Source: Candidatus Cybelea palsarum
GTDB taxonomy: Bacteria; Vulcanimicrobiota; Vulcanimicrobiia; Vulcanimicrobiales; Vulcanimicrobiaceae
Direction of reading: 5' to 3'
DNA: 32,285 nucleotides
Assembly (NCBI GenBank): GCA_003166915.1
Contig: PMUK01000182.1
Span: 286 to 32,570, forward strand
Part shown: piece by piece, positions 25,464 to 27,399 of the stretch
Layout of the letters: the number at the start of each line of letters is the position of its first letter
Numbering within the stretch: the stretch's first letter is position 1
Position numbers and translations under genes: made by a program
Notes under the pieces: model-generated
Databases searched by the model: none
Told to the model about the DNA's origin: nothing
Seen by the model: only the letters and a program-made list of their open reading frames with translations

Positions 25464-25958
25464 CTAGCTCCGAAAGCCGGCGCGGGGGATCCCGACCGCG
25501 AGCGTTACCAGCGAAGCCGCAGCCAAGGCAGCCGCATAGCCCTTATCTCCGCCGTTGGGGTTGGCGCGCTCCTCCGCTTGCAAGAGAGTATCGGTCGTGA
25601 GCACGCCGAAGCCGGTCGGGACGCCGCTCATCAGTTGAACGTCCATGATGCCGCGCGCGCATTGCGCCGCCACAAAGTCGAAGTGCGGCGTCTCCCCGCG
25701 AATGACGGCCCCCAGGGCGACCAGCCCGTCGAAGCGATCGGTTTCGATCAAGTTTAGGCACGCAAGCGGCAGCTCGAAACAACCGGGAACCTCAAAGAAG
25801 CTTACGTGATCGTCGCTGACGCGGCAGTCGCGCAATGCTCGCCGCGCGCCATCCACGAGATGATCGGCGATGTCGGCATGGAAGCGCGCCGAGACGATCG
25901 CAAAGCGTCGCCCCTCACAATCGGGTTTTGCCGTTTCCCGCGAGCCGTTGGACTTCAC
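25464..25958 (-). CDS. ribH: 6,7-dimethyl-8-ribityllumazine synthase
   Basis: Condenses the pyrimidine intermediate with 3,4-dihydroxy-2-butanone 4-phosphate, the penultimate riboflavin step. The 164-residue protein has FAIVSARFHADIADHLVDGA, EVPGCFELPLA and GAVIRGETPHFDFVA with the catalytic-type H92, then GVLTTDTLLQAEERA (family form GVLTxxxxxQAxxRA). The start is GTG at 25958, overlapping the ribBA stop as GTGA. It acts directly on the product of the RibB domain of the preceding gene. No ribD or ribE is seen in the window. Confidence 0.96.
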   Translation of the reverse strand: MKSNGSRETAKPDCEGRRFAIVSARFHADIADHLVDGARRALRDCRVSDDHVSFFEVPGCFELPLACLNLIETDRFDGLVALGAVIRGETPHFDFVAAQCARGIMDVQLMSGVPTGFGVLTTDTLLQAEERANPNGGDKGYAAALAAASLVTLAVGIPRAGFRS

Positions 25959-27364
25959 GATGCGACGACTTCGTCGAGCATGTGACCCAGCTTGGAGCGC
26001 TTCGTGTCGATGTAATGTTTGTTGTGAGCGGTAGGCGTCGTCTGCAACGGCATTCGTCCCACGATCTTGAGCCCGTACCCCTCGAGGCCGAAGATTTTCT
26101 TGGGATTGTTCGTGATCAGGCGCATCTCTTTGACGCCGAGGTCGGCGAGAACCTGGGAACCGATCCCGTAATCGCGCTTATCGATCGGCAAACCCAGAGC
26201 GAGATTCGCTTCGACAGTGTCGGCACCGCGATCTTGAAGCTCGTAGGCTCGCAGCTTATCGGCAAGCCCGATGCCGCGGCCTTCCTGTCGCAGATAGAGA
26301 AAGACGCCGCGCCCCTGTTGGGCGATCAGCTGCATCGCCGCATCGCGTTGGGCCGCGCAATCGCAGCGGATCGAGTGCAAGGCGTCGCCGGTCATGCATT
26401 CCGAGTGTACGCGGACAAGAATGTCCTTGCCGTCCCCGATCTCGCCCATAACCAACGCGACGTGCGTGTTCTCGTCAATGGCGGTGCCATACGCGATTCC
26501 CTTGAAGTTTCCGAACGCCGTGGGCAGATCGAACTCGGCGATTTTCCTGACGAGTTTCTCCGTGCGCATGCGGTACGCGATGAGATCCTTTACGGTAATC
26601 AGTTTGAGCTCGTGCCCGTCGGCGTAGCTGCGCAGGCCCTCCAAGCGTTCCATCGTTCCGTCGTCCGCCATAATTTCGCAGATGACGCCGGCGGGGTAGA
26701 GTCCCGCAAGGCGCGCCAAGTCGACGGCCGCTTCCGTCTGTCCGGCTCGGACCAAGACGCCGCCTTCACGGGCGCGTAACGGAAACGTGTGCCCGGGCCG
26801 CAGGAAGTCTGCCGGCTTCGCCTCGGGGTCGAGTAAACGTTTGATGGTAGCGGCGCGGTCGTGGGCCGAGATGCCCGTCGTCGTCATCCCTCGGGCCTCG
26901 ACGGAGACGGTGAACGCCGTTTCGTGGACGGCCGTGTTGTCGCGCACCATTTGCGGAATGTGAAGCTCGTCGAGCCGCGCGCCGGGCAGCGGCACGCAGA
27001 TCAAACCGCCGGCGTGCTTGCGCATGAAGTTGATCGCATCGGGCGTGACCATCGTTGCCGCCATCACGACGTCGCCTTCGTTCTCGCGGTCCTCGTCGTC
27101 GAGGACGACGACCATCTTTCCGGCCCGAATGTCCGCGATCGCGCCCTCAATCGAGTCGAACGGGCTGCCGACCCGACCCAACTGCTCGCCCAAGGAAGGG
27201 AAGACGTTGGCGAGGCGCTGTAGCGTGCGGTACGAGGGCTCCCGCCGGCCGGCCCGGAGCAGCGAGATCGCCGACTCCGTCAAGCCCGCGCTCTCGGCCA
27301 CCTCGGCGGCCGTGAGCCGCGCCTCATCGATAGCCGAGTTCAAAAGGTCCGCAAACTGCCCCAT
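25955..27364 (-). CDS. ribBA: HTH domain fused to bifunctional DHBP synthase / GTP cyclohydrolase II (XRE-RibBA)
   Basis: A 469-residue protein in three parts. Residues about 4-63 are an XRE-type helix-turn-helix (LTAAEVAESAGLTESAISLL, then RREPSYRTLQRLANVF). Residues about 70-268 are RibB (DHBP synthase) with DDEDRENEGD (89-98), TGISAHDRA and RPGHTFPL. Residues about 270-469 are RibA (GTP cyclohydrolase II) with RVHSECMTGD, zinc-type C323/C334/C336 and RQEGRGIGL. There is no alternative start at the HTH/RibB junction, so the fusion is real. Most RibBA start directly with RibB. The ATG at 27364 lies 6 nt after a -10 box, so the mRNA should be leaderless. A dyad over the -35 suggests autoregulation. 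Confidence 0.94.
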   Translation of the reverse strand: MGQFADLLNSAIDEARLTAAEVAESAGLTESAISLLRAGRREPSYRTLQRLANVFPSLGEQLGRVGSPFDSIEGAIADIRAGKMVVVLDDEDRENEGDVVMAATMVTPDAINFMRKHAGGLICVPLPGARLDELHIPQMVRDNTAVHETAFTVSVEARGMTTTGISAHDRAATIKRLLDPEAKPADFLRPGHTFPLRAREGGVLVRAGQTEAAVDLARLAGLYPAGVICEIMADDGTMERLEGLRSYADGHELKLITVKDLIAYRMRTEKLVRKIAEFDLPTAFGNFKGIAYGTAIDENTHVALVMGEIGDGKDILVRVHSECMTGDALHSIRCDCAAQRDAAMQLIAQQGRGVFLYLRQEGRGIGLADKLRAYELQDRGADTVEANLALGLPIDKRDYGIGSQVLADLGVKEMRLITNNPKKIFGLEGYGLKIVGRMPLQTTPTAHNKHYIDTKRSKLGHMLDEVVAS

Positions 27365-27370
27365 CCCTCC

Positions 27371-27398
27371 AGCCTATGCGGAACTTTACAAATGTCAA
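27371..27398 (-). promoter_or_regulatory. Promoter of the ribBA operon
   Basis: On the minus strand TTGACA (27398-27393), a 16-bp spacer and TAGGCT (27376-27371) form a good sigma-70 promoter. The -10 ends 6 nt before the ATG, which places the expected +1 at the A of the start codon. The GGAGG next to the ATG (1 nt spacing) is too close to act as a normal Shine-Dalgarno. Confidence 0.7.
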
Positions 27399-27399
27399 G
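27384..27399. promoter_or_regulatory. Dyad operator candidate over the ribBA -35 box
   Basis: CTTTACAAATGTCAAG reads CTTNACA-N2-TGTNAAG, with perfectly symmetric half-sites about a central AA/TT. It covers the whole -35 hexamer. ACA/TGT half-sites are common for XRE-type repressors. The HTH at the N-terminus of RibBA itself is the natural candidate to bind here; this is inference. Confidence 0.5.

Follow-up and report, generated by a model that had tools for sequence, protein, structure and literature searches.

The window examined here, the whole stretch of 32,285 nucleotides analysed from contig PMUK01000182.1 of Candidatus Cybelea palsarum, encodes the bifunctional riboflavin enzyme RibBA in one open frame with an N-terminal helix-turn-helix (HTH) DNA-binding domain of the XRE/HTH_3 type, and alignment of the DNA before start codons revealed a 16 base pair (bp) palindrome, CTTGACAnnTGTnAAG, in the promoter of that same gene, where it covers the -35 box. 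We consider it likely, at a probability of about 0.78, that the fused protein (HTH-RibBA) is a trigger enzyme that binds this one operator as a dimer over its own -35 region and thereby represses its own gene. The HTH domain is translated and under purifying selection. As judged by sequence comparison, the palindrome is nearly exclusive to HTH-ribBA genes within one order of the phylum Candidatus Eremiobacterota, and HTH and palindrome are jointly absent in one genome of that order (G035).

The HTH domain is part of the RibBA protein

The gene is a single open frame of 469 codons on the minus strand with its ATG at window position 27364, and a profile search of the organism's own genome returned it as the sole RibB-family match. 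A preliminary description, made from the sequence alone, had reported a 469-residue frame in which an HTH domain is followed by complete RibB and RibA domains, with the strand unstated. This was confirmed by Pfam, which matched HTH_3 at residues 14-55 (6.1e-7; 29.8 bits against a curated cut-off of 23), DHBP_synthase at residues 74-264 (7.8e-86, above cut-off) and GTP_cyclohydro2 (2.8e-68, above cut-off). Behind the HTH domain Pfam recognised RibB and RibA domains only, and no riboflavin kinase such as that of the archaeal regulator RbkR. NCBIfam identifies the enzyme part as bifunctional RibBA (NF006803, 622.6 bits against a cut-off of 569; TIGR00506 and TIGR00505 are likewise above cut-off). 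The motif DDEDRENEGD (residues 89-98) and the cysteines C323, C334 and C336 are unchanged in 40 of 40 aligned RibBA rows, the window's own included. Because these invariant columns include what we take to be the catalytic and zinc-binding motifs of RibBA, both the RibB and the RibA activity are probably intact.

The AlphaFold2 model has a five-helix N-terminal domain (helices at residues 2-15, 19-26, 30-37, 45-54 and 56-61) with the third helix in the recognition position, so that a multi-helix fold joins the Pfam score in assigning the domain to XRE/HTH_3. The linker between the HTH and the RibBA part is weakly predicted (predicted local distance difference test, pLDDT, below 50 at residues 64-66) and looks flexible in the model. 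HTH_3 and DHBP_synthase were both matched in 32 of 32 relatives of our alignment A1, and no listed match that enters the HTH at or before residue 5 contains an internal stop. Among 67 aligned proteins (69 loci minus L148, which is short, and L137, which has two N), residues G27, A32, S34, G39, R41 and P43 do not vary. The ratio of nonsynonymous to synonymous divergence (pN/pS), calculated for all 91 pairs among 14 loci of the same genus and rough because synonymous differences are many, is 0.244 for HTH residues 6-55 and 0.053 for residues 28-45, the recognition region, which is the lowest value among the stretches measured; RibB gives 0.094, RibA 0.134, the linker 0.521, residues 2-5 0.432 and the tail 0.202.

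Two families of the order share the in-frame HTH, and purifying selection acts on it; the frame is therefore neither a chance arrangement nor a misannotation. The preliminary description had named an HTH region left untranslated in related genomes as what would speak against the fusion, and the relatives show the opposite, an in-frame HTH with low pN/pS. The window protein does have TTG codons at residues 58 and 62, from which translation could begin before RibB, leaving the HTH stretch outside the protein or conserved as regulatory DNA; the low pN/pS, the recurrence of HTH_3 in every relative aligned, the lack of stops and a start codon just past the promoter make such a reading extremely improbable. 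By sequence, selection and predicted fold, HTH-RibBA is a metabolic enzyme with a DNA-binding domain of its own, as expected of a trigger enzyme.

A conserved palindrome over the -35 box

Sites were scored as the number of matches to 14 consensus positions, and the best site per locus was kept. Across 69 loci the best site scored 14 in 12 loci, 13 in 36, 12 in 16, 11 in three and 9 in two; a score of at least 11 was thus obtained in 67 of 69 loci, compared with 42 of 13,800 shuffled regions. These 69 rows exclude the window (same as L002), L133 (same as L032) and L166 (from genome G090, with the HTH in a shifted frame), and for L029 and L120 the scoring took a later ATG as the start, where later analyses took an upstream GTG. 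In 68 upstream regions, 13 of the 16 site positions carry 1.23-2.0 bits of information; none of the 40 positions ahead of the site exceeds 0.23 bit, and those after it stay at or below 0.54 bit. The left arm of the palindrome is the -35 hexamer, and the right arm, which has no such duty, is about equally conserved.

A TANNNT box follows 16-18 bp past the -35 position in 54 of the 69 loci, with a further 6-9 nucleotides to the start codon. From this spacing we predict that the ribBA message is leaderless and that the putative operator covers the -35 box and reaches into the spacer. Three loci (L125, L129 and L131) keep a palindrome without a TTGACA hexamer and therefore probably use another promoter element.

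An operator over the -35 hexamer stands at a place typical of repression, and in most loci the site spans the hexamer and part of the spacer. This placement argues against the fused protein binding the operator and activating the promoter or recruiting RNA polymerase, which we regard as unlikely, although passages of PMC3518464 describe the separate XRE-type proteins wBmxR1 and wBmxR2 of Wolbachia as activators at the promoter of the bifunctional RibBA gene (ribA) in a reporter.

Distribution of the fusion and of the site

The protein was matched in 122 of the 149 genomes of the phylum, most of the genomes compared consisting of many contigs. We found 89 N-termini reaching into the HTH, in 87 of the 103 genomes of two families, f1 and f2, of the one order; the architecture of HTH_3, DHBP_synthase and GTP_cyclohydro2, which the preliminary description had suggested looking for, thus recurs in both. 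In a further family of the same class, f3, 13 of 14 genomes gave matches, the best of which begin at residue 37 or later, and the 13 f3 loci that were read encode RibBA without an HTH and with an ATG directly before the RibB domain. One f3 genome (G020) has a further match from residue 19, with two stops inside. In the eight f3 genomes in which ribD and ribE were located, ribBA, ribD and ribE share a contig and a strand, with gaps below 300 bp in five; in the genome of the window, ribD-ribE is on a different contig from ribBA. One f1 genome, G035, encodes a RibBA without HTH (L146), which the tree places beside HTH-bearing rows (97/71), on a long branch. Presence of the HTH amounts to three changes over the 85-row tree; its deep forks have poor resolution, and L133, L145, L147, L148, L166 and L164 were left out of it.

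The nearest named relative among the matches listed is a Candidatus Eremiobacterota metagenome-assembled genome (L032, 74% identity). It is also the only one of the best 80 relatives among assembled contigs with an HTH, as judged by eye where the upstream frame exceeded 40 residues and with near kin possibly left out. No HTH joined to RibB in a single frame without stops was found in other phyla among the matches listed for the A1 profile, which was searched against 400 genomes sampled around one from the Chloroflexi, 396 sampled around that of an Actinomycete and 16 single genomes; these matches were judged by their start position, and 11 low-start ones (nine from the Chloroflexi group, two from the Actinomycete group) by eye. 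Nor was an HTH-RibBA found among the Protein Data Bank (PDB) matches listed by phmmer and Foldseek.

All 149 genomes were scanned for the exact pattern STTGACANNTGTNAAS, and the same pattern read backwards served as a control. Of the 70 exact sites in the 103 genomes of the order, 68, belonging to 66 genomes, are found 15-51 bp away from where an HTH-ribBA match has its N-terminal end; the control gave three matches in the same 103 genomes. The 46 other genomes yielded six distinct exact sites against 12 control matches, and no rib gene was recognised by eye in any of the six contexts. RibBA loci lacking the HTH did not have the site in any of 18 usable cases (best 10 of 14, by a laxer score), a set that excludes L145 (contig end), L147 (whose HTH is on another contig, L275) and L166. 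At the HTH-less locus of G035, TTGACA is present and the right arm is absent.

The two remaining exact sites of the order (L270:4995-5010 and L271:5769-5784, in G096 and G128) are some 2 kb away from ribBA, each near a transposase-like frame, presumably of the IS1595 type. Genome G001, which belongs to another family and has no RibBA match, contains three pattern sites (L240, L272 and L273) in or adjoining frames unlike rib genes. Genome G102 carries two copies of HTH-RibBA (L115 and L116), each with its own operator site.

We rejected the idea that this site also controls ribD, as none of 28 ribD-like loci has an upstream site (best 9 of 14); ribE stands directly behind ribD in most genomes compared. 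In the genome of the window, the loose pattern TTNACRNNYGTNAA gave nine distinct sites (control: four), one at ribBA and seven inside mechanical open frames. The ninth, an intergenic near-match, TTGACGTTTGTAAA (L178:1501-1514, contig 201), about 255 bp before a frame that we take to be MraZ-like, was not counted as a second target and is perhaps due to chance.

Covariation of the recognition helix and the predicted operator

At residue 35, in the recognition helix, 18 of the 67 proteins have Tyr and the other 49 have Leu, and base 13 of the operator is T with 15 of the 18 Tyr proteins but with eight of the 49 Leu proteins. Compared with a null of independent evolution on the enzyme-core tree (4,000 runs), this association (phi 0.63) has a p-value of 0.002 one-sided and 0.003 two-sided, to be discounted because the pair was chosen after viewing the data. 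Residue 35 is thus a candidate specificity residue.

These results bear on whether the fused HTH is what binds the site. XRE proteins are common in bacteria, and site and HTH might co-occur by shared descent, so the palindrome could belong to a separate regulator while the HTH of RibBA serves localisation, oligomerisation or other targets. With 68 of the 70 exact sites of the order at HTH-ribBA, both elements absent in G035, the lowest pN/pS in the recognition region and residue 35 covarying with base 13, such a division of roles appears improbable.

Proposed mechanism

Binding of the operator by the fused HTH, and repression by that binding, are proposed here. RibBA makes both riboflavin precursors, and RibB and RibA enzymes act as dimers. 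Half-sites about one helical turn apart are the usual geometry for XRE proteins, and the two HTH domains carried by a RibBA dimer would meet two half-sites at about that distance in the palindrome. Once bound, the protein would deny RNA polymerase access and thereby reduce transcription both of ribBA and of the overlapping lumazine synthase gene, ribH; repression is the most likely outcome because binding would cover the -35 box. In its simplest form this would be level control, in which more RibBA leads to less ribBA transcription. In a bolder form, DNA binding would be gated by substrate or flavin, with GTP, ribulose 5-phosphate, the products or FMN as candidate effectors.

Several observations weigh against autorepression by HTH-RibBA. 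Of the 87 genomes in which an HTH N-terminus was matched, 21 have no exact site (of 14 inspected, 12 score 11-13 and two score 9), and in L032 the best site is 50 bp before the start. Conservation of the left arm may partly have another cause, since this arm doubles as the -35 box. The independent events that HTH and palindrome have in common are few: the HTH changes three times on a tree with poorly resolved deep forks, and G035 has a long branch. The covariation pair, picked post hoc, involves six and seven changes per trait. The pS is high (median 0.55-0.60), and residues 28-45 were a chosen stretch set against whole-domain averages. Lastly, the linker, flexible in the model, would seem to offer no evident route from the active site to the HTH. 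Nevertheless, the interpretation given in the preliminary description is well supported by the comparisons as regards the fusion and a DNA-binding role, and the near-exclusive, conserved palindrome points to the ribBA promoter as the target; direct sensing of pathway flux, which it also suggested, would be a further, hypothetical property.

The flavin mononucleotide (FMN) riboswitch is the best-known means by which bacteria control riboflavin synthesis at the level of transcription. No Rfam match to it (RF00050) was obtained in the window or, under stricter filters and with scores for 20 candidates per genome in the 20 genomes listed, in any of the 149 genomes of the phylum. We tentatively suggest, as a possibility somewhat short of even odds, that the order replaced or never had this riboswitch and that RibBA, the committing enzyme, is a metabolite-gated single-target repressor, a one-protein flavin homeostat. 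Whether the XRE domains hold the -35 box might then, just as tentatively, depend on the state of RibBA with respect to substrate or flavin.

Comparison with known systems

The archaeal HTH-riboflavin kinase regulator RbkR, reportedly described by Rodionova et al. in 2017, was brought up in the preliminary description and is an apt analogy: like HTH-RibBA, it combines a flavin-metabolism enzyme and a gene regulator in one protein. The HTH of RbkR is of another class, and its regulon comprises several genes. It differs in being archaeal and a riboflavin kinase, whereas HTH-RibBA is bacterial, of the XRE/HTH_3 type and accompanied mostly by one exact site per genome. Passages of PMC8305020 list RbkR as bifunctional, together with a related enzyme-only form without the N-terminal HTH domain.

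Unlike HTH-RibBA, none of BirA, NadR and PutA of Escherichia coli is a riboflavin enzyme. In several of them, DNA binding is under ligand control. All three are presented as trigger enzymes, and PutA as single-target, in passages of PMC8249747. The Wolbachia proteins wBmxR1 and wBmxR2, as presented in the passages cited above, resemble HTH-RibBA in being XRE-type and acting at a RibBA promoter, and differ in being separate proteins, activators and users of another site. RibBA of Mycobacterium tuberculosis (PDB 4i14) is the same two-domain enzyme at 47% identity (Foldseek), and its phmmer match (2.7e-139 over residues 69-463) stops short of the HTH.

We found no description of HTH-RibBA or its operator in the literature searched, subscription papers and preprints being outside the search, in agreement with the preliminary description, which knew of no such regulator. 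A term search of the main text of a 2026 riboflavin review (PMC13028884) found neither RbkR nor DNA-binding mentioned. Trigger enzymes and flavin enzyme-regulators were known already; HTH-RibBA with its predicted operator appears to be new within the literature searched. It would represent a protein-based alternative to the FMN riboswitch, with enzyme, candidate sensor and repressor in one chain and one main target, and the defined operator and candidate specificity residue make it directly testable in E. coli. It would also be a case in which, within one order, an enzyme's repressor domain and the matching operator come and go together.

Features of the locus

Table 1. Positions of the HTH-ribBA gene, its domains, promoter elements and neighbouring ribH in the window.
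Feature	Position	Strand	Basis
HTH-RibBA gene, 469 residues	25955..27364	-	open frame, Pfam
XRE/HTH_3 DNA-binding domain, residues 1-62; recognition helix 30-37	27179..27364	-	Pfam, pN/pS, AlphaFold2
RibB (DHBP_synthase) domain	26573..27145	-	Pfam, NCBIfam, invariant columns in 40 RibBA rows
RibA (GTP cyclohydrolase II) domain, residues 274-439	26048..26545	-	Pfam, NCBIfam, invariant columns in 40 RibBA rows
Predicted operator CTTGACATTTGTAAAG, 16-bp imperfect palindrome	27384..27399	-	site scoring, genome pattern searches
-35 box TTGACA, within the predicted operator	27393..27398	-	sequence
-10-like box TAGGCT	27371..27376	-	sequence; transcript start inferred at or adjoining the start codon (leaderless)
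Lumazine synthase (ribH) frame, first possible start GTG overlapping the ribBA stop	25464..25958	-	open frame, Pfam, NCBIfam

Because the first possible start of ribH overlaps the ribBA stop, the two genes are probably co-transcribed. Downstream of ribH, on the same strand, are an IF-2B-family frame, which we take to be mtnA-like, and a frame resembling the DNA polymerase III delta subunit.
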